Shown here: piece after piece, positions 22,997-54,294 of the stretch | How the letters are laid out: each line of letters opens with the position of its first letter | How positions within the stretch are numbered: the stretch's first letter is position 1 | From: Olsenella urininfantis | Lineage (GTDB): Bacteria; Actinomycetota; Coriobacteriia; Coriobacteriales; Atopobiaceae | Direction: 5' to 3' | DNA: 58,590 nucleotides | Assembly (NCBI RefSeq): GCF_900155635.1 | Contig: NZ_LT732540.1 | Coordinates: 1,361,412-1,420,001 of the forward strand | Translations under genes and position numbers: made by a program | Notes under the pieces: generated by a model | Seen by the model: the letters and a program-made list of their open reading frames with translations, nothing else | What the model was told of the DNA's origin: nothing | Databases searched by the model: none

Positions 22997-25507
22997 CTAC
23001 TCGTCGTTGTCGCCGCCGGTTGAAGACATGGCGGCGGCGCTGTTGTCCTGGGCCTCCAGGACGTCACGCCACACCCACTCGGTGAAGCGAGGGTGGTCGT
23101 AGCCGTTGTCGCAGGCAAACTGGAACGCCTCGTCGCGGAATGCGCGCCACTCGGAGATCTTGTCGGCCCACTTGCCGGCGTCCACAAGCTCCAGGGCATG
23201 CGCCGCGAGGGCCCAGCGGTCCATCTCGTTCAGGCGCAGCATGTCGTAGGGCGTGGTGGTGGAGCCCTCCTCCATGTAGCCGTGAACGTGGAAGTTGTCG
23301 TGGCCCGGACGGTCGAAGATCAGGCCATGGATGCTGTGCGCGTAGGCGTGGAAGGCGAAGAGCACGGGCACGTCCGTGCCGAAGAGCTCGGCGAAGCGCT
23401 CGTCGGAGACGGCCTCGTCGTTCTCGCTGGCGTTCTGGATGCTCAGCAGGTCCACGACGTTGACGAACTTCACCTTGAGCCCCAGGTCCTGCAGGGCGTC
23501 AGAGGCGGCCAGCAGCTCCAGGGTGGGAACGTCGCCGCAGGAGGCGAGGACCAAATCGGGCCTCTGCCCCGCCTTGACGTTGCCCGCCCACTCCCACTCG
23601 GCCACGCCCTCGGCGAGCTCGGCCTTGGCCTCGTCGATGCTCTGGAAGGTGGGAGAGGGCTGCTTGCCCGCAAAGATGGCGTTGATCTTGTTGGTGGACT
23701 GGTAGCACCTCTCGCCCACGGCCAGCAGCATGTTGGCGTCGGCGGGATAGTACATCTTGACCACGTGATCGTTGTGGAAGTTCTTGTTCAGCAGCACGTC
23801 CACGAAGCCGGGGTCCTGGTGGGAGAAGCCGTTGTGGTCCTGACGCCAGACGTGGCTGGTGAGCAGGATGTTGAGGGAGGCGATGGGCGCCCTCCAGGGG
23901 ATGTGGCGCACGGTTGCCTCGAGCCACTTGGCATGCTGGTTGACCATGGAGTCAACCACGTGGATGAAGCTCTCGTAGCTGGACCAGACGCCGTGGCGGC
24001 CAGTGAGCAGGAAGCCCTCGAGAAGGCCCTCGCACTGGTGCTCGGAGAGCTGCTCGATGACAGAACCCGAGGAGCTCATGTGGATGTCGTTCTCGGGGTC
24101 CGCGTTGTGGCCGGCGTTCCACTGCTTGTCCGTGAGAGAGTAGGCGGCCTGCAGGCGGTTGGAGGCCGTCTCGTCAGGGCCGAAGACGCGGAACTTGGTG
24201 AGGTTGAGCTTCATGACGTCGCGCGTGTAGTCGCCGAAGACACGGCTGGCCTCGGTGGTGCCGAAGCCGTGGCCCTTCTCGTTGACGGGGATCTCGTAGG
24301 CGTGGATGTCCGGCAGCTCGAGGTCCTCGCGCAGGAGGCCTCCGTTGGCGTTGGGGTTGGCGCCCAGGCGCAGCTCCCCCTGGGGCATGAACTCGGTGAC
24401 CTCGGGTCGCAGCGAGCCGTTCTCGTCCCAGAGCTCATGGGGCCTGTAAGAGCGCAGCCAGCTGCGCAGCACGCGGAAGTGCTCGTGGGTGTCCTTCGCC
24501 GAGACCAGCGGCACCTGGTGCGCGCGCCAGCTGTCCTCGGTCTTCTTGCCGTCGATGAACTTGGGGCACGACCAGCCCTTGGGCGTCTTGAACACGATCA
24601 TGGGGTACGCCGGACGCTCGGTCTCGCCGGCGAGGGCGCGCCACTTGATGTCGCAGATCTCGTTGAAGACCTGCTCGAGAAGGGCCGCGAAGCGACGGTG
24701 GATGGAGATTACGGGCTCGTCGTCAAAGCCGGCCACGAAGGTGTAGGGGTGATATCCCATGCCACGGAAGAACTCGTTGCGCTCCTCGTCGGAGATGCGC
24801 GCGAGGATGGTGGGGTTGGCGATCTTGTAGCCGTTGAGGTGCAGGACCGGCAGGACGATGCCGTCGGTGAGCGGGTTCATGAGCTTGTTGGTCTGCCAGG
24901 AGGTGGCAAGCGGCCCCGTCTCCGCCTCGCCGTCGCCCACCACGGCAAAGGCCAGCAGGCTGGGGTTGTTGAGCACGGAGCCGTAGGCGTGGCTCAGGGT
25001 GTAGCCCAGCTCGCCGCCCTCGTGGATGGAGCCAGGTGTCTCGGGCGCGAAGTGGCTGGGGATGCCGCCGGGATAGGAGAACTGACGGAAGAACTTCTGC
25101 AGGCCCGCCTCGTCGTCAGTGATCTGCGGGTAGCGCTCGCGGTAGGTGCCGTCGAGCAGGGACTGCGCGGTGCCGGCGGGCCCACCGTGGCCCGGCCCCA
25201 TGAAGAACACGACGTTCTGGCCGTGATCGTGAATGAAGCGGTTGACGTGCCCCATCAGGAAGTTGATACCGGGCGTGGTGCCCCAGTGGCCCACAAGGCG
25301 GTGCTTGACGTCCGCACGGCCGAAGTCGCGCAGCTCCCCGGTCTTCTCGTCAGCGAAGTCGGAGCGCATGAGGGGGTTGCTGCGAAGGTAGATCTGCCCG
25401 ACTGACATGTAGTTTGCCGCGCGCCAGTACTTGTCTACCCAGGCAACCTCCTCTTCGGGCACGGGGGCATCGAGCTTCTTCCAGGGAGTACCCAGATCTT
25501 CTGCCAT
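22997..25507 (-). CDS. xfp: Xylulose-5-phosphate/fructose-6-phosphate phosphoketolase
   Basis: 836-residue thiamine-diphosphate enzyme that splits xylulose 5-phosphate (and often fructose 6-phosphate) with phosphate into acetyl phosphate and a shorter sugar phosphate. Length and sequence match bifidobacterial Xfp. The N-terminal domain has [34 protein letters not shown] and GPGHGGPA, and the ThDP-binding [14 protein letters not shown] is present. The C-terminal part has [26 protein letters not shown]. It gives the cell a phosphoketolase route to acetate and extra ATP. It stands alone, with its own 5' region holding an inverted repeat. AAAGGGAAG precedes the ATG. Confidence 0.97.
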
Positions 25508-25852: not shown

Positions 25853-26734
25853 CTAGTGCCTGGCGACGTCCTGGAAGAACTCCCATGCCTCGGCGTCGGT
25901 GGCGCCCTCGTGCACGATCATGCGCACGGCCTGGGCCATCTCGACGGGGTTTACGCTCTGGAAGATGTTGCGGCCCATGTCAACGCCGCGGGCGCCCTTC
26001 TGGATGACGCTATAGGCCATGTGCAGGGCGTCGCGCTCGGCGATCTTCTTGCCGCCGGCGACGACGATGGGCACGGGGCAGGCGGCCACGACCTCCTCGA
26101 AGTCCTCGCAGTCGTAGGTCTTCACAAGCTGGCAGCCCATCTCGGCGATGATGCGCGTGGCGAGCTTGAAGTAGCGGCCCGTGCGCTCCATGTCCTTGCC
26201 CACGGCGCAGACGCCCAGGGTGGGGATGCTGTAGCGCATGCCGGCATTGATGACCTGGCTGAGGTTGTCGATGCTGGAGAGCTGGCCGTCGCCGCCGATG
26301 AAGACCTGGGAGGCCATGCAGTCCGCGTTCATGCGGATGGCGTCCTCGATGTCAACGGCGACGACCTCATGGCTGAGGTCCGCCTGCAGCATGGAGGAGC
26401 CGGAGCTCACGCGCAGGGCGACGCCCTTGGCAAGCTCGGGGGCGACGCAGCTGCGGATGGCGCCGCGCGTGCCCATGAACACGTCCACATGGGGGGCGAG
26501 CGTCGGCAGGAGGAGGTCGAGCCTCTCGAGGCCTGCCGTGGAGCCCATGAAGTAGCCGTGGTCAAAGGCAAGCATGACGGTGTTGCCGCTCTTGGGGTCA
26601 AAGATGTTCGAGAGGTGCTTCTTCATGCCCCAGTCAAGGTTGTTGGCGCCCTTGACATAGAAGCCCTCGTTGTTGGCAAAGGGCACGTCCACGTGATAGT
26701 CCTTTGCGACCTTGAGTCCGTCCAGATCAGCCAT
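25853..26734 (-). CDS. lsrF: 3-hydroxy-5-phosphonooxypentane-2,4-dione thiolase LsrF
   Basis: 293-residue class I aldolase-like enzyme that, in enteric bacteria, transfers an acetyl group from the isomerised phospho-AI-2 to CoA, ending the signal. It aligns with E. coli LsrF along its whole length: MADLDGLKVAKDYHVD, LDWGMKKHLSNIF, VMLAFDHGYFMGST, then CQLVKTYDCEDFEE with the Schiff-base Lys, PVPIVVAGGKK and GVDMGRNIFQS. It is the last gene of lsrACDBF and is separated from lsrB by 75 bp containing a hairpin. In enterics lsrG follows; here the operon ends at a terminator. The start has a GAAAGGAA site just upstream. Confidence 0.95.
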   Translation of the reverse strand: MADLDGLKVAKDYHVDVPFANNEGFYVKGANNLDWGMKKHLSNIFDPKSGNTVMLAFDHGYFMGSTAGLERLDLLLPTLAPHVDVFMGTRGAIRSCVAPELAKGVALRVSSGSSMLQADLSHEVVAVDIEDAIRMNADCMASQVFIGGDGQLSSIDNLSQVINAGMRYSIPTLGVCAVGKDMERTGRYFKLATRIIAEMGCQLVKTYDCEDFEEVVAACPVPIVVAGGKKIAERDALHMAYSVIQKGARGVDMGRNIFQSVNPVEMAQAVRMIVHEGATDAEAWEFFQDVARH

Positions 26735-26760
26735 AGCGTTCCTTTCTCATGGCGAAAACA

Positions 26761-26793
26761 GGGCGGTGCCACGGCAGTCCCGCGGCACCGCCC
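26761..26793 (-). other. Intercistronic hairpin between lsrB and lsrF
   Basis: GGGCGGTGCC (26761-26770) is exactly complementary to GGCACCGCCC (26784-26793), with additional CGG/CCG pairing inside the 13-nt loop. There is no T run on the minus strand. Hairpins directly after a solute-binding-protein gene commonly stabilise that upstream message or attenuate downstream genes, which would give more LsrB than LsrF. Confidence 0.6.
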
Positions 26794-26809
26794 ACTTGTA
26801 GAACCGAGC

Positions 26810-27934
26810 TTAGAAGGAGTAGTTGTTCATGTTCTCCTTGGTGAAGACCAGACGCTCGGGAAGCAGGACGACGCCGTTGTTCTTGTCGCCGGTCTTTGCG
26901 CCCTGGGAGATGCTGTCGTTGGGCTCGACCTCGGCCTTGCCGATGCCGGGGATGTCGATGGTGTCGCCCACCTTGACCTCGTTGCCGGCGGCGAGATAGG
27001 CAGCCACATAGCAGCCCATGGCACCCTGGACGCCGCAGTCCCAAAGGCCCCAGTTGTGGATGGTGCCGTGCTCGCAGTAGGACTTGATGGACATGGGGGA
27101 CGCGAAGCCCGTGATGGTGATCTTGGACTGGTCGTAGCCCTTGTTCTCAGCGGCCTGGAGCTGTCCGGGAAGAGCGGTGGAGTCGTTGCAGATGATCAGG
27201 TCGATCTCGGGGAAGGCGTCGAGGACGGCCTCTCCGATGGTGATGGCCTGCTCGGCATCCTGGTTGGAGTAGTAGTTCTCGTGGACGTTCTTCCAGTTGG
27301 CGTGCTTCTCCTTGATGATCTTCTCGGCGGCAACCTGCCAGGAGTTCTGGTCGGTGACGGTGGCCTGGGAGTAGTGCCAGACGTAGGTGATCTCGTCCTT
27401 CTCGGGGTCCTTGCCGCGCTGCTTGAGGCCGTCGATGGACATATCGATCAGCATCTGGCCGAGAATCTCGGGCGTGCCCTGGGAGACCATGAGGGTACGG
27501 TCCTCGGGGTTGGCGTCGGAGTCCCAGGTGGCGACGACGATGCCGGCGTCCGTGGCCTTCTTGAGCGCGTCGGAGACGCCGCCCGCGTCGACCGTGGAGA
27601 TGCAGATGGCGTCCACGCCGTTGGCGACAGCCTGGTTGATGACGGAGACCTGGGCGGACACGGAGGCGGTGGCGTCACCGATGTAGTCGACGGTGATGCC
27701 CCAGTCCTTTGCCTTCTCCTGGGCGCCGTTGTTGGCGGACTCGAAGAATGCGTTGCCGGTCACCTTGGGGATGAACGCGACGGTCTTGCCCTTGATGTCG
27801 CCTGCGGTGGCAGCCTCGCCACCAGCTGCGGGAGCCTCCTCCTGCTTGCCGCCACAGCCCACTAGGCCAAGGCCGGCAACCGTTGCCGAAGCACCCATAA
27901 CCTTCAGGAAACTACGACGAGACACGTTCTTCAT
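26810..27934 (-). CDS. lsrB: Autoinducer-2 binding lipoprotein LsrB
   Basis: 374-residue solute-binding protein of the AI-2 ABC importer. The N-terminus has a twin-arginine-like SRRSFLK motif and a lipobox ending at Cys27, so it is a membrane-tethered lipoprotein rather than a periplasmic protein. It aligns with enteric LsrB throughout. Four of the six AI-2 contacts recalled from Salmonella LsrB are evident: Lys in IPKVTG, Asp in TWDSD, and Asp-Gln in VTDQN. The Pro-x-Ala pair (PDA in E. coli) reads N-D-S (CNDSTALPG), so the pocket is altered on one side. The C-terminus GVVLLPERLVFTKENMNNY is nearly identical to the enteric one. The gene lies between lsrD and lsrF. Confidence 0.92.
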   Translation of the reverse strand: MKNVSRRSFLKVMGASATVAGLGLVGCGGKQEEAPAAGGEAATAGDIKGKTVAFIPKVTGNAFFESANNGAQEKAKDWGITVDYIGDATASVSAQVSVINQAVANGVDAICISTVDAGGVSDALKKATDAGIVVATWDSDANPEDRTLMVSQGTPEILGQMLIDMSIDGLKQRGKDPEKDEITYVWHYSQATVTDQNSWQVAAEKIIKEKHANWKNVHENYYSNQDAEQAITIGEAVLDAFPEIDLIICNDSTALPGQLQAAENKGYDQSKITITGFASPMSIKSYCEHGTIHNWGLWDCGVQGAMGCYVAAYLAAGNEVKVGDTIDIPGIGKAEVEPNDSISQGAKTGDKNNGVVLLPERLVFTKENMNNYSF

Positions 27935-27963
27935 AGCGCAACCTCCATCTTCCCTGGCCTGTT

Positions 27964-29007
27964 CTAGGCCTTGACATTGGGGCCATGGCCCACCTTGCTT
28001 GCAAACAGCGCCCGTAGCATAGGCACGAAGCCCGTGTTACTAGCCGCAGAACGCCCAACGATGACGGCGACGAGCAGGATTCCCACCGGGATGTTCAGGT
28101 ACTGGGTGCCCACCTTGAAGCAAAGCGGCAGACCAAACTTGAGGAAGGCGATGGCAAAGGACGCGAGCGCCGTTCCGATGATGGACCCCTTGCCACCCGT
28201 GGAGAGGGTGCCTCCCAGAACCACCGCGGTGATGATGTCCATGGTGAGGCCGCCGCCCAGGTCAGACTTGGCCGTGCCAAGATATGCCGTGAGCACGATG
28301 CCGGCAATAGACGCCGCGGCGGCGCTCAGCACGTAGGTCGACATGATCACCAGCCTGCTGTTGATGCCGGAGTACTCCGCGGCCTGGGCGTTCACGCCGG
28401 TGAGGATCACCTTGCGACCGTACTTGGTCTTGTGCAGCAGGACAAAGGCGATGGCAAACAGGGCCACGTAGATGAGCAGCTGGAAGGGAACGGCCCCAAG
28501 CACCTGGTGGCTGGCGATGAACTTGAACTCGTCGGGGAAGCCTCCGATGCCCTGGTAGCTCTCCGTGCTCGAGAGCGTGGAGACGAGCAGGGCGATCCCC
28601 GAGTAGAGGAAGCTGCCGCCCAGGGTGACCACCATGGCCTGCACCCCGCAGTACGCTATCAGGAAGCCCGAGAAGGCGCCGCAGACGATGCAGATCGCCA
28701 CAGCTAGGGCGACCGCCGCCCAGATGGAGAAGCCAAAGTCCTGCCAGGCGACGCCAATGGTGATGGACGTGAGGCCCACGAGGGACGCCACCTGGATGTC
28801 GATGCCTCCGGTGACCATGACCAGGGTGACGAAAAGCGCGATCATGAACACGGGCAGGTTGTCGTTGATGCTGGTGAAGAGCAGGGCGGGGCGCAGGAAC
28901 TTGGGGTTGGCCGCGCCGAACACCACGAACTCGAGCACGAGCAGACCGATGAGGATGAGGTTCCAGCTTGCCTGGCCCCTGGTGAGAAGCTGCTTGATGC
29001 GCGACAT
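27964..29007 (-). CDS. lsrD: AI-2 ABC transporter permease LsrD
   Basis: 347-residue BPD_transp_2 (RbsC-type) permease with about ten hydrophobic segments. Typical blocks are FVTLVMVTGGIDIQVASLVGL near residue 60, the LLHKTKYGRKVILTGVNAQAAEYSGI cytoplasmic loop that docks the ATPase, and AVVLGGTLSTGGKGSIIGT. It abuts lsrC with no intervening base between the lsrC stop and its ATG. Order after lsrC and before lsrB makes it the LsrD equivalent; assignment of C versus D rests on gene order because both are alike. Confidence 0.88.
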   Translation of the reverse strand: MSRIKQLLTRGQASWNLILIGLLVLEFVVFGAANPKFLRPALLFTSINDNLPVFMIALFVTLVMVTGGIDIQVASLVGLTSITIGVAWQDFGFSIWAAVALAVAICIVCGAFSGFLIAYCGVQAMVVTLGGSFLYSGIALLVSTLSSTESYQGIGGFPDEFKFIASHQVLGAVPFQLLIYVALFAIAFVLLHKTKYGRKVILTGVNAQAAEYSGINSRLVIMSTYVLSAAAASIAGIVLTAYLGTAKSDLGGGLTMDIITAVVLGGTLSTGGKGSIIGTALASFAIAFLKFGLPLCFKVGTQYLNIPVGILLVAVIVGRSAASNTGFVPMLRALFASKVGHGPNVKA

Positions 29008-30051
29008 CTATGCCTCGCCTCCTTCCTGGTCCTTACCCTCCGCGGCCGTGGCAGCCTCCGTGCCGGAGGAGACGCGGGCGGCAAGGCGGGCGTGACGGTT
29101 CTTGACGATGGCCCGACGCTGCAGGAGCGCATCCACCACGACGATGACGATGAGGATGATGCCGGTGATGGCGTTGTCGTAGTTGGACGAGAAGCCCATG
29201 AAGACCAGCAGGTAGCTGATCGAGGCCATGATGACGGCACCGATGGCGGACCCCACGACGGAACCCACGCCTCCCAGGAGGCTGATGCCGCCCAGAACGC
29301 AGGCCGCGATGGCCTTCATCTCGTAGCCGTTGCCGCTGGCGGGGGTGACGAAGCCGATGCGGCTGCAGAAGATGATGCCCCCGACGGCGGCCATGACGCC
29401 GCAGATGACGTAAGCGAGGATCGTGGTGCTGCGCGTGGGCAGGCCGACGAGGGTAGCGCCCTGCGCGTTGTCTCCCACGGCGTGGAAGTAGCGCCCACGC
29501 TTGGTCTTGGTGAGCAGGAAGTGGACCACGGCGACCAGGACAAGGGTTGCGCAGTAGTAGACGGTCAGGTCACCGACGGCGGTCACGGACGAGAAGTCCT
29601 TGAAGCCCTTGGGCAGGTTCTCAACCCAGGCACCATTGGTGTAGACGTAGATGATGCCGCGCAGGACGCCGTTGACGCCCAGGGTGAAGATCAGCGAGGG
29701 CGCCTTCATGATGGCCACGCCCCAGGCGTTGATGAGGCCGATCAGGGCACCGATGACGACGCCCACGATGATGGCCAGGCCCAGGGACTGGCCATCGCGC
29801 AGCATGCTGCCCACGACCGCGGCAACCAGGCCGAGGTTTGCGCCAACGGAGACGTCGATCTCTCCGATGAAGAGCGTGAAGGCCATGCCCACGGCAACCA
29901 GGGTGTAGACCACCGAGGTGTTGAAGCAGGCGGAGACGTTGGAGGGCGTCAGGAACGCCGGGTTGATCAGGCCAACCACCAAGAAGAGGATGACCAGGAA
30001 CACGAGGCTGCTCATGCTGCGCGCATGGAGAAGGTTCTTGATGCGTCCCAT
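29008..30051 (-). CDS. lsrC: AI-2 ABC transporter permease LsrC
   Basis: 347-residue sugar-type ABC permease with about ten membrane segments. Conserved blocks are VAVGMAFTLFIGEIDVSVGANLGL, the docking loop LLTKTKRGRYFHAVGDNAQGATLVGL, and CVLGGISLLGGVGSVVGSAIGA. The tail after residue 320 is polar and Ala/Glu-rich, longer than in lsrD. The ATG overlaps the last base of the lsrA stop (TAATG), and lsrD follows directly, so the three genes are translationally coupled. It forms the membrane channel with LsrD. Confidence 0.88.
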   Translation of the reverse strand: MGRIKNLLHARSMSSLVFLVILFLVVGLINPAFLTPSNVSACFNTSVVYTLVAVGMAFTLFIGEIDVSVGANLGLVAAVVGSMLRDGQSLGLAIIVGVVIGALIGLINAWGVAIMKAPSLIFTLGVNGVLRGIIYVYTNGAWVENLPKGFKDFSSVTAVGDLTVYYCATLVLVAVVHFLLTKTKRGRYFHAVGDNAQGATLVGLPTRSTTILAYVICGVMAAVGGIIFCSRIGFVTPASGNGYEMKAIAACVLGGISLLGGVGSVVGSAIGAVIMASISYLLVFMGFSSNYDNAITGIILIVIVVVDALLQRRAIVKNRHARLAARVSSGTEAATAAEGKDQEGGEA

Positions 30052-31628
30052 TACTCGGTCACCGCCTTCGCTTCTGCCTGATACACGCCAAACGCCGCCG
30101 CGGTCAGGTTCTCCTGGACTATCTGGTCCCTCTCGAACTCCTGGACAATGCGGCCCTGGTACATGACCAGCGCGCGGTCGGAGAGCTCGACGACCTCCTC
30201 CATGTCGGAGGAGATGAGCAGGATGGACACGCCCGTGTCCCTGAGCTCCTGCAGGACCGCGTAGACGTCCCCACGGGCCGCTGCGTCGATGCCGCGGGTG
30301 GGCTCGTCGAGGATGACCACCTTGGGGGAGGTGGAGAAGGCGCGGCCGATGACGATCTTCTGCTGGTTTCCGCCCGAGAGTCCGCCAACCTCCTGGTCAA
30401 GCCCCGTCACCTTGGTGCGGAAGCGGTCCACGTAGCTCTGGGAGACCCTCTCCTCCTCCTTGGCGTTGAGGAAGAGCCTGCCCATGCGGCTGCTGGAGAG
30501 CAGCGCGCTGGTGGTGTTCTCCGCGACCCCGCGGATGCGGTAGAGGCCGTCGTTGAAGCGGTCCTCGGGAACGTAGTTGAGACCCATGGATATGACCTGG
30601 CGGGTCTTGCGGCCGGTGATGTCCTGACCGTTGAGAAGCACGCTGCCGCCCAGGGCCTTGTCCATGCCAAAGATGGTGGTTGCCATCTCGGTGCGGCCGG
30701 CGCCAACGACTCCCGCCAGGCCCACGATCTCCCCGGGATAGATGTCAAAGCTGATGTCCGAGAAGCCGTAGCCGCAGAAGCCCTGAACCTTGAGGACGGG
30801 ATCCTGGGAATAGTCGATCTTTCGCGCGGCGCCCCTGGCCTTGCCGGAGGACAGGCTGGCATCCGCCGGGAGCAGGCCGCGCACGAGGTCGTCACGGGTG
30901 AACTCGAAGACGTTTCCCTGCGTGGTGACGATGCCATCACGCAGTATGGCCACCGTGGTGCCGATCTCGAAGACCTCGGCCAGGCGGTGGGTGATGTAGA
31001 TGATGCCTATGCCCTTGTTCTGCAGCTCCTGGACGCAGGCCAGAAGGCTCTGGACCTCGTCGAAGGTGAGGGCGGAGGTAGGCTCGTCGAGGATGAGCAC
31101 CTTAGGGTTGCGCATGAGGCCGCGCAGGATCTCCACCATGCCCTGCTCGGCGATGGAGAGGGTGGACGCCTTGCGGTCGAGGTCGAGCGACCAGCCAATC
31201 TCGTCCATGACGGACCTGAGGCGGCTCTCGAGCTCCGAGGCACCCTCGTCGAAGCCGATGACTATGTTCTCGCGCACGGTCATGTTGGGGAAGAGCATGG
31301 GCTCCTGCGGCACCATGTAGATGCTGTGCGCCAGGGCGGCCTTGGGGTTGGAGATGTCCACCTTCTCGCCCGCGATGGTAATCTCTCCCCTGTCCGCGGA
31401 GTAGATGCCCATGATGATCTTCATCAGAGTGGACTTGCCCGCTCCGTTCCCTCCGATGAGCGCCAGCACCTGGCCCTTGCAGAGGTCGAGGCTGATGCCC
31501 TTGAGCACCGCGTTGGAGCCGAAGGACTTGTAGATGTTCTGCACCGAAAGCAGCGTGTTGGGAACCTGATAGCTGATTCCCGACCCATCCTGCTTCGCAG
31601 CGTCTTGCTGACTGCCGGCAGCTTCCAC
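30051..31628 (-). CDS. lsrA: AI-2 ABC transporter ATPase LsrA
   Basis: 525-residue duplicated ABC ATPase of the sugar-import type. The first domain (about 25-265) has Walker A GGNGAGKST, the atypical signature LSIAEQ and Walker B VLILDEPTSAL. The second (about 275-515) has the usual degenerate Walker A GVVGAGRTE and signature LSGGNQQK. It energises import through LsrC/LsrD. The frame is open upstream to 31751, but GTG 31628 has GGGAGG five bases before it and gives a length close to enteric LsrA (511). It is the first gene of the minus-strand operon and divergent from lsrR. Confidence 0.9.
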   Translation of the reverse strand: MEAAGSQQDAAKQDGSGISYQVPNTLLSVQNIYKSFGSNAVLKGISLDLCKGQVLALIGGNGAGKSTLMKIIMGIYSADRGEITIAGEKVDISNPKAALAHSIYMVPQEPMLFPNMTVRENIVIGFDEGASELESRLRSVMDEIGWSLDLDRKASTLSIAEQGMVEILRGLMRNPKVLILDEPTSALTFDEVQSLLACVQELQNKGIGIIYITHRLAEVFEIGTTVAILRDGIVTTQGNVFEFTRDDLVRGLLPADASLSSGKARGAARKIDYSQDPVLKVQGFCGYGFSDISFDIYPGEIVGLAGVVGAGRTEMATTIFGMDKALGGSVLLNGQDITGRKTRQVISMGLNYVPEDRFNDGLYRIRGVAENTTSALLSSSRMGRLFLNAKEEERVSQSYVDRFRTKVTGLDQEVGGLSGGNQQKIVIGRAFSTSPKVVILDEPTRGIDAAARGDVYAVLQELRDTGVSILLISSDMEEVVELSDRALVMYQGRIVQEFERDQIVQENLTAAAFGVYQAEAKAVTE

Positions 31629-32050
31629 GTGGCCTCCCTTCCCTTGTGACGAGAGGGACTGGCCCCCCAGGGCCCATCCCCCAAACAGGACGATAAAACG
31701 CACGCGCCCGGCCGGCCACCGCTTGTGACACGAGCGGTAGCAAAGCGTCAACGAGTGGCAAATTGTTTCAACAAATGACGTTTGTTCTATCGTTTGATTT
31801 GTAGCACAACGAAGGCAGCCTAGTTTCGACTTTCGCCCAAAAGGCCCCAGACACGACTTGGACTATATTTGTTTCATGTCTTCTAACTGCTTTTTTGTTA
31901 ATCTTTCCTTGATATTTCCACGCCGAGGTCAGCTTCCACTCGCACGAGTTGAAATTGACATGCCCCCGCTGTGGTTGTATATCTGTTTATGAACTACTGT
32001 CATGTCATTGGACATTTGTTCCAATTTCTCTTAGCTGGGAGGCGAGCATC
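31629..32050. promoter_or_regulatory. lsrA-lsrR divergent control region with candidate LsrR operators
   Basis: This 422-bp AT-richer region separates the divergent lsr units. Three palindromes stand out: TTGTTTCAACAA (31763-31774); AACAAA-N5-TTTGTT (31770-31786), overlapping it; and ATTGGA-N7-TCCAAT (32007-32025), which ends 25 bp before the lsrR start. CGTTTG also repeats at 31779 and 31791. In E. coli, LsrR represses both directions from the equivalent region, so these are candidate operators. TATATT at 31864-31869 is a possible -10 for lsrR. Promoter placement is uncertain. Confidence 0.5.
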
Positions 32051-32965
32051 TTGTCTGAGTCCGAGTACTCTCTCACTCTCAAGGCTGCCTGGTACTACTA
32101 CATGGAGAGCTACACGCAGCAAGAGATCTCGTCTCTCATGGGCATCTCGCGCGCCAAGGTCATCCGCCTGCTGGACGAGGCCCGCCAAGGCGGGATCATC
32201 CGCTTCAGCTTCCGGGAGGAAGACCAGGTCCGCATGGACGTGGAGAGAAGGCTCATAGAGGGCTTCGGCCTCGACGACGCCATGGTGGTCCCCACCCCCG
32301 TTGACGAGTCGTCGCTTCTCGACAGCATCGCACGGGCCGCGTCGATGTATGTCACCTATCACCTCAAGCCCAACGGCTACCTCAACATCGGCTACGGCGA
32401 CACCATGGGCCTCACCCTCAGCCACCTGGCCAACAGCGGCCGCAAGGACTTCAGCGTGGTGAGCCTCACCGGCGGCGTGAGCTACTACCTGCCCAAGGTG
32501 CCTCTGGGCTCGCTGAACATGAAGCTCTACCTCACGCCCACCCCGCTCACGCTCTCTTCGGTGGAGCTCAAGGAGGCCCTGATGAGGGAGCCCTCCATCC
32601 AGAGCATCAGCCGGATGACGGCCCTGGCGGACATGAGCGTGATGAGCCTGGGCAGCCTCACCGAGGATGCCACCACCATGCGCAACGGGATCATCGACGC
32701 CAACGACCTGGCCCTCCTGCGCATGGAGGGCTGCGTGGGGGACATCCTCAACCACTTCATAGACAGCAGGGGCGAGGTCATCCCCACCAGCATCGACGAC
32801 AGGTCGGTGAGCACCAGCCTGGAGAGCCTCTGCTCCATGAAGAACGTGGTGGGGGTCGCCGGAGGAGCCGCGAAGGTCGCCGTGCTTCGCGCGGCGCTGG
32901 CGCATGACTACCTCAACGTGCTCATAACTGACGAGCAGACTGCGCTGGGCCTGCTTGGAGACTGA
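32051..32965 (+). CDS. lsrR: LsrR-like transcriptional regulator (SorC/DeoR-type)
   Basis: 304-residue regulator. The N-terminal helix-turn-helix is LKAAWYYYMESYTQQEISSLMGISRAKVIRLL, very similar in layout to E. coli LsrR (IAWFYYHDGLTQSEIS). The SorC sugar-phosphate-binding domain follows from about residue 60, with NIGYGDTMGLTLSHL, SLTGGVSYYLPK, GCVGDILNHFIDSRG and VGVAGGAAKVAVLRAAL. Phospho-AI-2 is the expected inducer that releases repression. The frame is open from 31949, but TTG 32051 is chosen because GGGAGG lies eight bases upstream and the protein then begins at the family's usual place. lsrK follows 19 bp later. Confidence 0.9.
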   Translation: MSESEYSLTLKAAWYYYMESYTQQEISSLMGISRAKVIRLLDEARQGGIIRFSFREEDQVRMDVERRLIEGFGLDDAMVVPTPVDESSLLDSIARAASMYVTYHLKPNGYLNIGYGDTMGLTLSHLANSGRKDFSVVSLTGGVSYYLPKVPLGSLNMKLYLTPTPLTLSSVELKEALMREPSIQSISRMTALADMSVMSLGSLTEDATTMRNGIIDANDLALLRMEGCVGDILNHFIDSRGEVIPTSIDDRSVSTSLESLCSMKNVVGVAGGAAKVAVLRAALAHDYLNVLITDEQTALGLLGD

Positions 32966-32984
32966 CGGACACACGAGCTAGGGG

Positions 32985-34556
32985 ATGATGGCATTGGAGA
33001 GGTACCTGCTGGCAATGGACGCGGGAACGGGCAGCGTGCGCGCCGTCCTGTTCTCGACAGAGGGCGACCAGGTTGCCGTCGCCCAGAGAGAGTGGGAGCA
33101 CCGGGAGGACCCCCGCTGGCCGGGGAGCATGGACTTTGACTGGGCACACAACTGGGACCTCGCCCGCAGCTGCGTGCGGGAGGTCATAGAGAGGTCCGAG
33201 GTGGACCCCAGAGACATCGCGGGGGTCTCCACCACCTGCATGCGCGAGGGCATCGTCCTCTATGACGAGAGTGGCGAGGAGATCTGGGCCTGCGCCAACG
33301 TTGACGCCCGCAGCACCGACGAGGTGGGGGAGCTCATCAGGATGAACCCCGAGCTGGAGCGCGAGATCTACCGCGAGAGCGGCCAGACCTACGCCCTGGG
33401 GGCGCTGCCCCGCCTCCTCTGGGTGAAGAGCAAGATGCCCGAGGTCTACGAGCGCTGCGCGCGCGTGGGCATGTTCAACGACTGGCTCATCTACAAGCTG
33501 ACCGGCGTCCTTGCGGTGGAGCCCAGCAACGGCAGCACCACGGGGATGATGAGCCTGGAGAGGCGCGACTGGGACCCCAGCATCTCACAGCGCTGCGGCC
33601 TCAAGGCCGACATCTTTGGCCCCGTGCTCGAGTGCGGCTCGCGCGCGGGGGAGGTCAGCGCCTGGGGCTCCGAGCAGACCGGCCTTGCCGAGGGCACGCC
33701 CGTGATCGTGGGCGGCGGAGACTGCCAGCTGGGCATGATCGGAATCGACGCCTGCGAGCCGGGGCAGGCGGGCGTCTTTGGGGGCAGCTTCTGGCAGTAC
33801 GAGTTCAACACCGCCAGCGCCGCCACCGACCCGGACTGCCGCGTGCGCGTCAACTGCCACGCCATCCCCGAGGTCTGGCAGTACGAGGCCCTGGCCTTCA
33901 AGCCGGGACTGGTCATGCGCTGGTACCGGGACGGCTTCTGCCAGGCCGAGAAGGCCGAGGCGGCAGCCCTTGGCAGGGACGTGTACGACCTCATGAACGA
34001 GAGGGCCGCGAAGGTCCCCGCCGGCAGCCATGGCATGCTCTGCTGCTTCAGCGACGTGATGAACTTCATCCACTGGACCCATGCCAGCCCCACCTTCACC
34101 AACTTCGAGCTGGACCCCGAGCGCTTCGACAAGTACTGCTTCTACCGGGCCATCCTGGAGAACACGGCGCTTCTCGTGCGCGGCCACATCGACCTGGTGC
34201 GCGAGGCGACGGGCAACGAGCCTGACGAGCTCATCTTCGCCGGCGGGGCCTCAAAGAGCCCGCTCTGGGCGCAGATCGTGGCGGACGTGTGCGGCAAGGC
34301 GGTCAAGGTCCCGCAGGTCAAGGAGGCAACGGCACTGGGAGCTGCGGTGCTCGCCGGCTACGGCGTGGGCATCTACCCCAGCATCGCCGAGGGCGCGCAC
34401 CGGGTGGTCAAGTGGGACCGGAGCTACACGCCCAACGAGCAGAACCGCGCCGTCTACGACAAGCTCTATGCCAGCTGGCGCAGGCTTTACGCGGAGCAGC
34501 TCCGCCTCAGCGAGGAGGGCGTCACCAAGGGAATGTGGAGGGCCCCGGGCATCTAG
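32985..34556 (+). CDS. lsrK: Autoinducer-2 kinase LsrK
   Basis: 523-residue FGGY-family kinase that phosphorylates imported AI-2, trapping it in the cytoplasm and producing the LsrR inducer. The N-terminal ATPase fold has LLAMDAGTGSVRAVLF, then GVSTTCMREGIVLYDESG, and FNDWLIYKLTGVLAVEPSNGST, which is typical of LsrK. The C-terminal domain has LIFAGGASKSPLWAQIVADVCGK and ATALGAAVLAGYGVG. Length matches enteric LsrK (530). Two tandem ATGs (32985, 32988) are possible starts. It lies between lsrR and a cupin gene in one transcript. Confidence 0.93.
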   Translation: MMALERYLLAMDAGTGSVRAVLFSTEGDQVAVAQREWEHREDPRWPGSMDFDWAHNWDLARSCVREVIERSEVDPRDIAGVSTTCMREGIVLYDESGEEIWACANVDARSTDEVGELIRMNPELEREIYRESGQTYALGALPRLLWVKSKMPEVYERCARVGMFNDWLIYKLTGVLAVEPSNGSTTGMMSLERRDWDPSISQRCGLKADIFGPVLECGSRAGEVSAWGSEQTGLAEGTPVIVGGGDCQLGMIGIDACEPGQAGVFGGSFWQYEFNTASAATDPDCRVRVNCHAIPEVWQYEALAFKPGLVMRWYRDGFCQAEKAEAAALGRDVYDLMNERAAKVPAGSHGMLCCFSDVMNFIHWTHASPTFTNFELDPERFDKYCFYRAILENTALLVRGHIDLVREATGNEPDELIFAGGASKSPLWAQIVADVCGKAVKVPQVKEATALGAAVLAGYGVGIYPSIAEGAHRVVKWDRSYTPNEQNRAVYDKLYASWRRLYAEQLRLSEEGVTKGMWRAPGI

Positions 34557-34613
34557 TGCCGGGGCAGGAAGGCCGTCACGCGGCATCGCGGCATATCAGA
34601 AGGGACAACGCCA

Positions 34614-34964
34614 ATGTTTATCGTCAACGAGAACGACTTCGAGTACCGATTTGGCGACTCCGGGCCCAAGTACCTCATGAAGGGCCCGCGCATGAACTAC
34701 GCCCTGGTGCAGTTCCAGCCGGGCCAGGACTTCCAGGCCCACTTCCACAACGTGATGGAGGAGAACTTCTTCATCCTCACCGGCAAGGTGGACATCGTTG
34801 TTGACGGCGTGTTGCACACGCTCTCCGAGGGAGACTTCATCCACATCGAGCCCAGCGAGGTCCACTACGTGCGCAACCCCTACGACCAGGTGGTGAAGAT
34901 GGTCTCGACGCTTGCCCCCTACCAGGAGGTTGACAAGGTCGAGGCGGAAAACCCCGTCTACTAG
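34614..34964 (+). CDS. Small single-domain cupin, probably linked to AI-2 processing
   Basis: 116-residue single cupin barrel. Motif 1 is AHFHNVMEENFFILTG, with the two metal-ligand histidines, the Glu and the FILxG strand; motif 2 is GDFIHIEPSEVHYVRN, with the third His. These would bind one divalent metal. Nothing else identifies a substrate. It follows lsrK by 57 bp in the same direction and precedes a clear terminator, so it is the last gene of lsrR-lsrK-cupin. The locus lacks lsrG, the ABM-fold isomerase of phospho-AI-2. A metal-dependent cupin isomerase in its place is attractive but unproven; a sugar-isomerase-like or sensory role is possible. Confidence 0.8.
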   Translation: MFIVNENDFEYRFGDSGPKYLMKGPRMNYALVQFQPGQDFQAHFHNVMEENFFILTGKVDIVVDGVLHTLSEGDFIHIEPSEVHYVRNPYDQVVKMVSTLAPYQEVDKVEAENPVY

Positions 34965-34986
34965 GCGACGGTCGCAACGCTCGCGA

Positions 34987-35017
34987 GGGCCTTCCGCCTT
35001 GGGCGGGAGGCCCTTTT
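34987..35017 (+). terminator. Intrinsic terminator of lsrRK-cupin
   Basis: GGGCCTTCCGCC (34987-34998) pairs with GGCGGGAGGCCC (35002-35013), with one T-G wobble and a TTG loop, and is followed directly by TTTT. It lies 22 bp after the cupin stop and is a standard rho-independent terminator. Confidence 0.85.
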
Positions 35018-35102
35018 GCCACATGTCCGGCGCGCTTGCCGCTAAGATGGAGAGCCAGCATTAGCTTGGGCGCTGGGCGCCCCAGACGAGAGGGACCACT
35101 CC

Positions 35103-36467
35103 ATGGCCATCACGCCCGAAGAAGTCGCCGAGACCCTGAGCATGGTCTCCCAGCAGAACCTCGACCTGCGCACCATCACCATGGGCATCTCGCTCTTCGG
35201 CTGCGCCGACGAGGACATGGGTCGCATGTGCACCAAGATCTACGACCGCATCACGCGCACGGCAGAGCGCCTCGTGCCCACGGCCCAGGGCCTGGAGCGG
35301 GAGTACGGCATCCCCATTGCCAACAAGCGCGTCTCGGTCACGCCCATAGCGCAGATAGCCGCGGCCTGCCCCGACGAGGACCTCTCCCCCATTGCCCGCG
35401 CCATGAACCGCGCGGCCGAGAGCCTGGGCATAGACTTCATGGGCGGCTTCTCCGCCCTGGTGCAGAAGGGCATGGGCTCCGCCGACCGTCGTCTCATCAA
35501 CTCCATCCCCGAGGCCCTCGCCTCCACGGAGCGCGTCTGCTCCAGCGTCAACGTGGCAAGCCTGCGCGCCGGTATCAACATGGACGCCGTGCTGCTCATG
35601 GCCCAGAAGATGATCGACGCCGCGCGCCTGACCACCGACATCGACTGCTACGGCGCGGCCAAGCTCGTCGTGTTCGCCAACATGGTGGAGGACTCGCCCT
35701 TCATGGCCGGCGCCATCCACGGCGGCGGGGAGGGTGACGCCGTGCTCAACGTGGGCGTATCCGGCCCTGGCGTCATGGCCGCCTCCCTGGAGCAGCTTCC
35801 CCAGGACGCAGACCTCACCGAGGTTGCCGAGAAGATAAAGCAGACCGCCTTCAAGATCACCCGCGCCGGGGAGCTCATGAGCCGCGAGGCGGCGCGCAGG
35901 CTTGGCGCCCAGAAGGGCATAGTTGACCTGAGCCTGGCACCCACGCCCGCCGCCGGCGACTCCGTGGCCAAAATCCTGGAGATCATCGGCGTTGGCGAGT
36001 GCGGTGGCCCTGGCACCACCTGTGCGCTGGCGCTGCTCAACGACGCGGTGAAGAAGGGCGGGGTCATGGCCAGCTCCAGCGTGGGCGGGCTTTCCGGCGC
36101 CTTCATCCCCGTCTCGGAGGACGCGGGCATGATCCGCGCCGCGCGGGACGGGGCCCTCTCCCTCGAGAAGCTCGAGGCCATGACCTGCGTGTGCTCCGTG
36201 GGCCTTGACATGATCGCCATCCCCGGAGACACGCCCGTGGAGACCATCGCCGGCATCATCGCCGACGAGATGGCCATAGGCGTGATCAACGCCAAGACCA
36301 CGGCCGTGCGCCTCATTCCGGCAATCGGGCGCAGCGAGGGGGACATCCTTGACTTTGGCGGGCTCTTTGGCTCGGCACCCGTCATGCCCGTGAACGCGTT
36401 TGCGGGAAGCGTCCTGGCACACCGAGGCGGCCAGTTCCCGGCGCCCCTGAACTCTCTGAAGAACTAA
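35103..36467 (+). CDS. PFL family protein of unknown function (DUF711/UPF0210)
   Basis: 454-residue cytoplasmic protein of the UPF0210 family, distantly related to the pyruvate formate-lyase fold but without a glycyl radical. Recognisable segments are [62 protein letters not shown] and [18 protein letters not shown], with the C-terminal [13 protein letters not shown]. In many Gram-positives the gene follows a small ACT-domain protein; none is present here. The role is unknown. The start has GAGAGGG a few bases upstream, and a strong hairpin follows. Confidence 0.9.
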
Positions 36468-37636: not shown

Positions 37637-37788
37637 TGCTATATTTTGAGTATCAGTTTCGGGGCGGGGTGCAAATCCCCACTGGCGGTGACGCGGGCCA
37701 TGGGGGACCCGCCAAGTCCGCGCGCCGCAGATCGCGGCTGACCTGGTGGGATTCCAGGACCAACGGTAACAGTCCGGACGGAAGAAAC
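37637..37788 (+). promoter_or_regulatory. Extended -10 promoter and FMN riboswitch (RFN element)
   Basis: TGC followed by TATATT (37640-37645) is an extended -10, placing the start close to 37652. The RFN element occupies about 37656-37788. P1 is GTTTC (37656-37660) with GAAAC (37784-37788). The conserved core includes GGGGTGCAAATCCCC, ACTGGCGGTGACGCGGG, CTGGTGGGATTCCAG and CAACGGTAACAGTCCGGACG. The P1 stem ends directly at GGGG (37789-37792), the ribosome binding site of ribU, and no terminator hairpin fits before the ATG. FMN binding therefore most likely blocks translation. Confidence 0.95.
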
Positions 37789-37797
37789 GGGGCCACC

Positions 37798-49441: not shown

Positions 49442-52400
49442 TTACCTTTGCCCGCGCTTCTTGAGCAGCGCCCCTCCTGTCACCGTGAGCGCCACTGCTC
49501 CGAGCAGCAACGCGCCAACGCCACCATTGCGGTCCCCTGTCCTGGGGAGAGCGCTCACCTTGGCGACGTCCTTCACCACAAGCCTGACCACGGCGCCATG
49601 CTCTTCGATCTTCACGGACGAGGACGTCCGATTAATCTCATATCCCTCAGGTGCCCTGGTCTCCACCAGCTCATAGGTACCATACGCGACGCCGGCAAAG
49701 CTCAAGGTGCCATCGGAACCCGTTGTGCCCCTTGCAACAACCTTGTTGTCTTGCCTGAGCTCAAACTCGGCGCCAGGAAGAGCCTTGCCCTCGTTTTGGG
49801 CATCAACCTTGGACACCAAAACCGAGCCCTTGATCTGCTCGTCGCCCACCGTCAGAGAGGCAACTTGGCCCTGCGTGGCAATGGTTACCTCATGTGGGGT
49901 CGCATCAAGCACATAGCCTGTTGGCGCGGCAGTCTCCACAACCTCATACGTACCATACGGCACGTCGGCAAACGAAAGCACGCCAGAGTCATCAGTGACC
50001 CCCTCGCGCACCTTCTTGCCATCGAGCCTCAGCTCAAAGCCCGTGTTCGGCAAAGGCTTGGTGGCATCTGCCTTGTCTACCTTGGACACCTTGATGGTGC
50101 CGTGGATACGAGTGTTGGTGACGGTTGCGACGGTATGAGAGCCAACTACCTTACCCTGCGCATCCCTGTCATCCTGCTGTCTGTACGCATAGGAGGCAAC
50201 ATATCCCTCAGGAACGTTCGTTTCCTTGACGGTGTACGTTATGGGCACGCCAGCAGAAGGGCTGTTTGCCAGCAGGTTGCCGTACGTTCCCTTCCATGGT
50301 GTTTCGCCCATGCTTGAGAGATTGGCCGCGGGCACTGCCTGCGCATCGATGTCTTTGGCTGCCGCGCCATCGGCAAGCAGCTCAACATTGAGCGCGTCAT
50401 GGCTGATGGTGCCACCTTCGGTGCCGTCTGCGTTCTTGCCTTCCACCCAGACCTTCTCGACATCCACCCTTGTTACCCGCGTGAGGCCTATGTTGAGCGC
50501 CATGGCATTAGCGGACTCTATGGTTACCCCTTGCACCGATGCGGACGACTGGCCATCGGCGGCAGTCATGGCCATGTCATTCTTCGTGGGTGAGAAGCGC
50601 ACAAAAGTACCCATGTCCGTGGAGGTGGGATCGGTAGGGTTGTATGCCTTTACGGTATACGCATCAAGCGTGCCGTCAGCATTGGAGGACCAGTCCTTGA
50701 GGCCCCTGAACACATACGAGCCGCTTGCGTCGGTTGTTGCAGTATCCACCAGCTTATTGCGGGCATCATAGAGCTCGATCTTCATGCCGGAAATGACATC
50801 GGCCGCTTCGCTCTTGTCAATCCTGCCATCGTAGTTGGCGTCTACCCACGCCACGCCCCCAAGCACGCCAGGGGTTGGTGTCATGGCAACGGGCTGTCCG
50901 TAACGATAGCCCTTACCAGAGCCAAGGTCGCGCAAATAGGTAGGTGTATACACGTCAATGAGCTTCTTCTCGAAGTCCTCTTTGGAGACGTCGCGCAAGG
51001 CGAGGTTGAACTTGAACTCCTGGCGGCTGCCCGCACCGAACACGCCACTTGCTGGGGAGGAGATGCGCACGAAGTTTACCGCATCCCAATCCTGCTGCGT
51101 CCATGCGGAAGTGTTGTCCTCGTCAGTCCACTCAAAACTGCCCCAGTCAAGCGCTTGGCTGGTGGGCGTGGCGTTCCTTGCGTAGGAGATGGTGTAACCA
51201 GCGGGTAACGCGCTCTTAAGGCCACCGTTCAAGAACATGTCAAACTGAAACGCCCCGTTGGGTTGGATTGCCCGACCCCAGTCTTGTCCCTTCTTGGGCA
51301 CTGGCCAATAGGTAATGAATCCGTTGGCGTCAGTCTTTGTGGGGTTGCTTGCAACCAGGCGATAATCCACCGTGCTGTTAGCGCCGATGAGCGTCTTTGA
51401 GAGGCCGTCGTAGGTAATGTATTGGGAGTCCGGCTGCGTTGCCATCTTTGCGGAGGACTTCACGACAAGGTCCGTAGGCGCCTTAATCTCCAGGGAGCCC
51501 ATGGGACGACCGATTTTGTCAGTTGTGCTGCCATTGCCATTGAGGTCCCACTTATCGTCAGCAAAACCGCTGCCATAAACTAAGTCTTCTTTGGTTGCGG
51601 TATCAAACTCATACCAAATAAGTTGAGCCCAAATACCGCCAGGCTGATCTTTTTCTGGATCAGAAGCATAGTTCATAACAATCGAACTACCACCCGTATA
51701 GGCCCAGTAAGAAGGGTTAATAGCATAGGGGACTACTTTTGCTCCTTCCCGCCATGCTACGCTGGGACCAAAAGTGCGCATGTCATAAAAATCATCTGCA
51801 GAAGTAAATTTTGAAAAATCAAGCTTATACACACGGGCCTGAGGGTACTCTGCCTTCAGCGCGTCGGATGCTGGCACCTCATAGATGTCTGGCTGCTTGG
51901 CAAGGTTGGTGTAATCATCCCACTTTCCTGCCACTCCCCAATACTCTTTACTCAAAAGAGATCTATATGCCACAGAAAGCGACATATCACTTCCGTACGG
52001 ACTTACTACGTAGATTGCCTTATAGCTCTGGATACCACGGCTTGAACCATCCCACGTTGGGGTGAAATAGTCAAAAAATTGACCTCTTTTTTGCTCGCCC
52101 AAAACCAACGACAGGGGATAAGCGGTTCCTTCATGCCAACCCGTTGTAGGTCCATGACCTTGGATGAAGCTTTTCCCGGTAAACGCGGTAAAAGTATCTC
52201 CGATAGTTACATGATCTGCCGACCGTCCGGGGTATTTGAGGACCACCTCGCCCTTACCATCATTAAAGTCCCAGGTTTTCTGGTTACGATGGTGCCAATT
52301 TGGCTCTTCGTCACCCGTGTTCTCTATGCGAATGCGGGTCTTGAACAGGCTGGGGTCATCACCCCACTTGCCCTTCTCGCGCACCTCATTGGTGAGCACC

Positions 52401-54259: not shown

Positions 54260-54294
54260 TGGTATCCCCAAAATATAGTTAGCTTATTTTAAGG

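Follow-up and report, generated by a model that had tools for sequence, protein, structure and literature searches.

The stretch of DNA analysed here (the window: 58,590 nt of Olsenella urininfantis, contig NZ_LT732540.1, positions 1,361,412 to 1,420,001 of the forward strand) contains a divergent pair of gene clusters related to the enteric lsr genes for uptake and processing of autoinducer-2 (AI-2). The genes lsrACDBF are transcribed away from lsrR-lsrK, with one control region between them, and a gene coding for a small cupin protein starts 57 bases past lsrK (Table 1). This divergent arrangement had been proposed in a first-pass annotation of the sequence; its gene coordinates and layout were borne out, and the genes are confirmed as real at these positions. 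The interval singled out at that time, 25853 to 34964, ends on the cupin gene, which was left unnamed. The analysis gives slightly better than even support to the idea that this is a clostridial-type Lsr operon importing and degrading AI-2, and that the cupin encoded after lsrK carries out the isomerisation performed elsewhere by LsrG.

Table 1. Features of the lsr locus, numbered from the first nucleotide of the window
Feature	Position	Strand	Assignment	Basis
lsrF	25853-26734	-	class I aldolase-type thiolase, predicted cleavage of isomerised phospho-AI-2	NCBIfam NF006081, 402 bits
lsrB	26810-27934	-	predicted AI-2-binding lipoprotein	PDB 6dsp LsrB match, 489 bits
lsrD	27964-29007	-	ABC permease	top NCBIfam LsrD, 241 bits, cut-off 500
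lsrC	29008-30051	-	ABC permease	top NCBIfam LsrC, 257 bits, cut-off 388
lsrA	30051-31751	-	double ATPase	top NCBIfam LsrA, 526 bits, cut-off 586
control region	31752-31948	.	between divergent operons	bounded by ORF (open reading frame) ends
lsrR	31949-32965	+	SorC-type repressor	NCBIfam LsrR, 177 bits, cut-off 486
lsrK	32985-34556	+	AI-2 kinase	NCBIfam NF008187, 737 bits, cut-off 528
cupin gene	34614-34964	+	116 aa, proposed phospho-AI-2 isomerase	Pfam Cupin_2, 63 bits, cut-off 27
hairpin	34987-35017	+	intrinsic-terminator-like (12 pairs, loop 3, TTTT), after lsrR-lsrK-cupin	

For each of the seven lsr products, the matching Lsr family was the top NCBIfam match. The curated cut-off was passed by LsrF (cut-off 297) and LsrK only; LsrA, LsrB (330 bits, cut-off 384), LsrC, LsrD and LsrR scored below theirs. 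Three LsrF residues proposed to be catalytic (D57, K203 and D251; PMC2728841) were kept in all 37 aligned LsrF sequences. A search of the PDB with four of the proteins returned the corresponding Lsr protein as the nearest solved structure in every case, namely 6dsp for LsrB (the best rhamnose binder reaching 95 bits), 3gkf/3glc for LsrF (321 bits), 5ya0 for LsrK (565 bits; next kinase, 121) and 4l5i for LsrR. For LsrR the nearest competitor was DeoR, with 170 bits against 177 in NCBIfam, and 120 against 149 in the PDB. Six LsrB sites (K35, D116, D166, Q167, P220 and A222) were taken to be the AI-2 contacts. The first four were conserved in 39/39 aligned LsrB sequences, while sites 220 and 222 were N and S in 35 of these rows, the window included, and P and A in four proteobacterial rows. 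The alignment placed N and S at these two sites in 6dsp as well. Further, the LsrB of a locus from the same class as the clostridial genome G004 (locus L068, genome G372) was identical to 6dsp over residues 11-353; its gene lies in a complete lsr locus of the cupin type, which makes the solved receptor part of such an operon.

Of 140 Atopobiaceae genomes, 97 contained the AI-2 synthase gene luxS, as did 16 of the 17 that bear LsrK, the exception being G002. It was not detected in two of the ten genomes carrying the related loci L001-L010. These two genomes, the five products scoring under their NCBIfam cut-offs and the two differing residues among the six LsrB contacts would all fit an operon that imports some other pentose-like compound and whose Lsr names are inherited by homology. 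Such a ligand is improbable, given that the same two LsrB substitutions occur in 6dsp, that LsrK and LsrF exceed their cut-offs, and that luxS accompanies LsrK in nearly all the Atopobiaceae that have it. We conclude from the sequence comparisons that the operon is an AI-2 system, with AI-2 as its predicted ligand.

The closest named locus was that of Olsenella phocaeensis (genome G001; LsrB 93% and LsrK 90% identical), with Atopobium also close. A close resemblance to the E. coli proteins had been noted at first pass. The resemblance is real (LsrF 53%, LsrK 48% and LsrB 41% identity), but it is lower than that to the clostridial locus L004 (LsrF 82%, LsrK 72%, LsrB 67%, cupin 77%, LsrR 50%). 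Quick maximum-likelihood trees, built without rows L011, L067 and L071 or LsrB sequences shorter than 300 residues, gathered the Atopobiaceae into one clade both for LsrB (16 rows) and for LsrK (17 rows), with Shimodaira-Hasegawa-like approximate likelihood ratio test (SH-aLRT) values of 98 and 97, respectively. Four Clostridia loci formed the sister group (joint branch 98 for LsrB and 99 for LsrK), and enteric and other proteobacterial copies fell outside. The outgroup and Lacticaseibacillus branches were long. In the LsrB tree a branch with an SH-aLRT value of 100 set all Lsr rows apart from RbsB, AlsB, XylF and YtfQ, although the outgroup branches were very long. A grouping with ribose or xylose transport systems, named at first pass as the outcome that would refute the assignment, was thus not obtained. 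The claim that an AI-2-type Lsr locus is present in an actinobacterium is supported. The accompanying proposal, that a whole enteric module moved into the actinobacterium and was then adapted, would account for the shared divergent layout and the full-length similarity to the E. coli proteins. It is nevertheless barely credible, as the trees group the Atopobiaceae with Clostridia, a cupin is present where LsrG is missing, and the N/S pair of LsrB matches clostridial and treponemal rows rather than the P/A pair of four proteobacterial ones. The trees instead point to a single acquisition or exchange, in either direction, that involved Clostridia and not enterics.

The LsrB N-terminus of the window carries a twin-arginine-like motif (SRRSFLK) followed by a lipobox (LVGC), a combination found in 16/16 Atopobiaceae LsrB sequences (12 by pattern and four by eye). 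In the four sister Clostridia (L004, L005, L007 and L008) the lipobox was present and the twin-arginine-like motif absent. The pattern was also matched in three other clostridial rows (L069-L071), where it precedes a possible later start codon. The export route of LsrB thus likely changed in the Atopobiaceae. A lipobox, as recognised by a simple pattern, occurred in all eight clostridial LsrB rows and in the one lactobacillar row, which does not agree with the earlier view of a 'lipoprotein-converted' LsrB as an adaptation of the enteric protein.

LsrK was detected in 17/140 Atopobiaceae genomes, 10/197 of those sampled in the class and 6/396 of those sampled in the phylum. Five of the last six were already in the Coriobacteriia sample. 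The other, G981 (Actinomycetota), was rejected as a second actinobacterial Lsr system: its kinase is 39% identical to LsrK and scored 485 bits against a cut-off of 528, and within its 19.5 kb no lsr gene scored more than 100 bits, nor did any cupin or LsrG exceed 40 bits.

The cupin gene proved to be tightly linked to lsrK. A search with LsrB found 11 loci, one of which (L011) is a distant transporter; in the ten that are lsr loci the cupin gene follows lsrK, its product being 72-94% identical to that of the window. In a wider set of 41 cupin loci it always lay on the lsrK strand, after a gap of 10-305 bases. Counting the cupin as present at a score of at least 150 bits, and LsrK at E 1e-80 or better, the cupin was detected in 17/17 LsrK-bearing and 0/123 LsrK-free genomes of the Atopobiaceae, in 11/11 and 0/107 of the Treponema family, and in 2/2 and 0/289 of the class of G004, making 30/30 against 0/519 for the three samples combined. 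For the last two taxa the LsrK and cupin searches used sampled draws, taken as identical because their sizes and listed genomes agree. Among the 17 Atopobiaceae, genome G065 retains no more than the final third of LsrK, in a broken locus (L067) in which an apparent internal deletion spared the end of lsrK, lsrF, the cupin gene and part of lsrB. Genome G608 carries a pair of lsr loci, L070 and L071, that matched with equal scores and are separated by about 150 kb on the same contig. Cupin matches (E 1e-12) occurred in seven of 72,556 plasmid records, all seven being among the 79 with LsrK. The cupin was also found in 125 of 5,426 E. coli genomes, and a search with a 546-base stretch running from the end of lsrK into the cupin gene matched 125 genomes at 99% identity or more and a coverage of at least 80%, which is impossible without both genes.

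According to the first-pass annotation, all elements of the enteric system were present. LsrG was not found in the window: a tblastn search with the E. coli protein gave a best match with an E value of 5.6, and the possibility of an LsrG gene in a different frame, or away from the locus but still inside the window, was accordingly discarded. An LsrG profile found nothing in 32 of 36 related genomes of the cupin type, and gave at best 35-42 bits in the other four. The same profile recovered 7/7 LsrG proteins outside its training set at 127-169 bits, the weak matches in those four genomes staying at 36-43. The 54 lsrK loci examined comprised 40 with a cupin and no LsrG, 11 with LsrG and no cupin, three with both and none with neither. 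These loci include 13 plasmid loci, hand-picked from the 79 records with LsrK, and three from E. coli genomes. The script tally was 41, 11, three and one, respectively, before the exclusion of L135 (a kinase of 167 bits, with a cupin 7.9 kb away) and L133 (a lone 39% kinase). In seven of the 11 LsrG-only loci, all proteobacterial and including that of Sinorhizobium, the LsrG gene lies directly after lsrK, the position occupied by the cupin gene in the window.

The cupin passed the cut-off of Pfam Cupin_2 (PF07883) only, and no NCBIfam family was above its own. It did not match the ABM domain PF03992, which E. coli LsrG does match. Metal-dependent cupins have two cupin motifs that supply three His and one Glu to the metal. 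The predicted ligand positions, H43, H45, E50 and H84, were invariant in 41/41 cupins, and near residues 17-26 a motif that reads GPKYLMKGPR in the window was invariant or nearly so. The structure model (mean predicted local distance difference test score, 94) had many small cupins as neighbours at similar Z, including phosphomannose isomerase, TM1459, DddK and KdgF. Ligand sensing by cupin domains is known from AraC-type regulators, and the cupin of Salmonella scored 37 bits against Pfam AraC_binding. This match, together with the close association of the cupin gene with lsrR-lsrK, probably within a single transcription unit followed by a hairpin, might suggest a non-catalytic binder that modulates LsrK or LsrR, for instance by keeping phospho-AI-2 sequestered. 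Such a role is rather unlikely, since the four metal-ligand positions are invariant, the cupin is better conserved than LsrR (77% against 50% identity to L004), and no DNA-binding domain was matched in it.

In the enteric pathway, LsrG isomerises phospho-4,5-dihydroxy-2,3-pentanedione (phospho-DPD), after which LsrF passes an acetyl group to coenzyme A (CoA) and dihydroxyacetone phosphate (DHAP) is freed (PMC8016206). As LsrF and LsrK are present in the window and LsrG was not found, something else should supply the substrate of LsrF. The cupin is a candidate because it is the remaining gene common to every complete locus of its type, because its conservation is near that of LsrF (77% against 82% identity to L004), and because it holds the position of LsrG in Sinorhizobium and six other proteobacterial loci. 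From this we infer that the cupin would be a phospho-AI-2 isomerase performing the LsrG step, the case for its catalysis being one of guilt by association. AI-2 would enter through LsrB and LsrACD and be phosphorylated by LsrK, and phospho-AI-2 would release LsrR. The isomer made from phospho-DPD by the cupin would then be split by LsrF, giving acetyl-CoA and DHAP. Cupin sugar-phosphate isomerases work via a metal-bound enediolate, and the same chemistry may apply here. Each round of Lsr activity increases the amount of transporter, and for this reason the cupin would contribute to shutting the signal off as well. More broadly, the metal-dependent cupin may represent a second, unrelated family of phospho-AI-2 isomerases, one that stands in for LsrG in Atopobiaceae, Clostridia, lactobacilli and treponemes, sits at the LsrG position of Sinorhizobium and other Proteobacteria, and is kept beside LsrG in Salmonella; for this wider proposal the chances appear evenly balanced.

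Several observations weigh against assigning the LsrG step to the cupin. Common descent links the genomes of the three taxa sampled, and likewise the 54 loci, so the counts overstate their independence, and incomplete genomes may be among those counted. The negative result for LsrG covers the window and the 36 related genomes, and the host may have an LsrG gene elsewhere in its genome. Weaker cupin relatives (38-50% identity) occur in four LsrK-free genomes, at 117 (G501), 105 (G467), 101 (G500) and 88 bits (G241), the rest staying at or below 41 bits; the wider cupin family must therefore have other jobs. The fold neighbours at similar Z include a dimethylsulfoniopropionate lyase, a polyketide cyclase and proteins of uncharacterised function, and with neighbours doing such varied jobs the fold alone does not fix the reaction. 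Both a cupin and LsrG are encoded in Salmonella locus L083 and in E. coli loci L131 and L132, so the two proteins are not simply alternatives to each other, and a strict displacement of LsrG by the cupin was rejected. Finally, a plasmid of Deinococcus psychrotolerans (L084) carries lsrK and the cupin gene with no lsr-type transporter, lsrF or lsrR within 10 kb. The loci with both genes and the Deinococcus pair count against plain replacement and leave room for a step before phosphorylation, in which the cupin, as a mutarotase or ring-opener, would interconvert the ring, hydrated and open forms of imported AI-2 and supply the open form to LsrK. In keeping with this, KdgF, which opens sugar rings, is a structural neighbour, and RbsD-type pyranase genes were found in two lsrK loci: directly after the cupin gene in Lacticaseibacillus, and in the LsrG-only locus of Roseicitreum (L086), which is rearranged and gave no LsrB or LsrF match. 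E. coli K-12, however, has no cupin at its lsr locus and yet imports and phosphorylates AI-2, so such a step is not needed; nor does this idea predict that none of the 54 lsrK loci should lack both LsrG and the cupin. A role ahead of LsrK is thus unlikely, if less so than one as a binder, and action on phospho-AI-2 is preferred.

In both E. coli loci with the two genes, L131 and L132, in which the annotation was examined, an epimerase gene follows lsrG, as in the Salmonella record, and the loci adjoin transposase remnants and a group II intron.

Comparison with known systems placed the locus nearest to that of Clostridia: loci L004, L005, L007, L008 and L068 have the same order, lsrACDBF / lsrR-lsrK-cupin. 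The E. coli K-12 and Salmonella loci are homologous throughout their divergent lsrACDBF and lsrRK genes; in both, LsrG is encoded after LsrF, unlike in the window. Salmonella L083 has a cupin gene after lsrK, its product being 42% identical to that of the window. Sinorhizobium and other Proteobacteria share with the window a small enzyme gene directly after lsrK, but in those seven loci it codes for an LsrG-type ABM protein; no lsrF was matched there, and in the five annotated loci a class II aldolase takes its place. Small cupin isomerases such as Thermococcus phosphomannose isomerase (7zvy) and KdgF were 13-20% identical to the window cupin, and their fold alone assigns no substrate to it. 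A parallel by description is offered by yeast Cff1p, a cupin needed for making the AI-2 mimic 4-hydroxy-5-methylfuran-3(2H)-one, for which sugar isomerase/epimerase chemistry has been proposed (PMC8092285). Cff1p makes an AI-2 mimic, whereas the window cupin is proposed to consume phospho-AI-2.

The occurrence of Lsr systems in this group is known biology. A survey of gut species reported lsrACDB with lsrK and lsrR in 101 species, eight of them Actinobacteriota, mainly Atopobiaceae (PMC12503165, ISME J 2025), so that complete lsr loci in Atopobiaceae have already been published; LsrB has been reported in 15 phyla, including Actinobacteriota (PMC12268683). The first-pass statement that Lsr systems are best known from Proteobacteria and some Firmicutes is therefore outdated. 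The association of the cupin with AI-2 operons is likewise known to an annotation pipeline: RAST labels a protein of a Bacillus cereus-group strain 'Cupin domain protein in autoinducer 2 (AI-2)-related operon', with no function stated in that passage (PMC8876208). No paper treating the cupin and LsrG together was found in the open-licence literature. The Salmonella cupin, assigned by adjacency, is STM4071, which is annotated there as a hypothetical protein and whose expression shifts along with the lsr genes in two published transcriptomes. AI-2 is regarded as a signal that bacteria share, and the intracellular route by which it is ended (LsrG, then LsrF) is known from E. coli and Salmonella. 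The cupin makes the operon a variant worth one enzyme assay. Were its proposed role to hold, the AI-2 route would become complete and testable in those Gram-positive bacteria and spirochaetes that were examined, and STM4071 would gain a function. Surveys of functional systems would also gain a marker gene; that in PMC12503165 used lsrACDB, lsrK and lsrR as criteria, LsrG and LsrF not being named in its main text.

Some gene starts may need adjustment. The NCBIfam match of LsrA begins only at residue 64, and the TTG start of lsrA at 31751 is probably too far upstream; for lsrR the in-frame TTG at 32051 is the likely start. The real control region is probably longer, at about 31.6-32.05 kb. It contains TTTGTTC words at about 31781 and 32015, with like words in some relatives, which make a candidate operator. 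The word AACAAAAGT was present in 14/22 control regions, but many of these rows are near-copies and no LsrR site is claimed for it. A sigma-70 promoter scan detected no promoter, and a T-rich consensus scan of 31500-35200 detected no terminator. The stretch 34981-35021, which includes the hairpin, has a folding energy of -29.8 kcal/mol (z -4.2), and lsrR-lsrK-cupin forms a probable single transcription unit.

Adjoining lsrF is a phosphoketolase gene (22997-25507, minus strand), with a 93% identical neighbour in the O. phocaeensis locus L001. It was set aside as an Lsr partner, having been matched only in the window and L001 among the loci compared. Downstream of the hairpin, 35103-36467 (plus strand) codes for a conserved hypothetical protein of the PRK05313 family (703 bits), which had no match next to lsr in any other locus compared. 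A flavin mononucleotide (FMN) riboswitch (37651-37793, plus strand; 97 bits) lies ahead of a small membrane protein ORF that by eye is riboflavin transporter-like. Finally, a 1,609-residue ORF with SpaA, SdrD_B and Cna_B domains (49442-54271, minus strand), in a region of lower G+C content (0.53-0.61 at 48-54 kb), likely codes for a surface adhesin or pilin-like protein.

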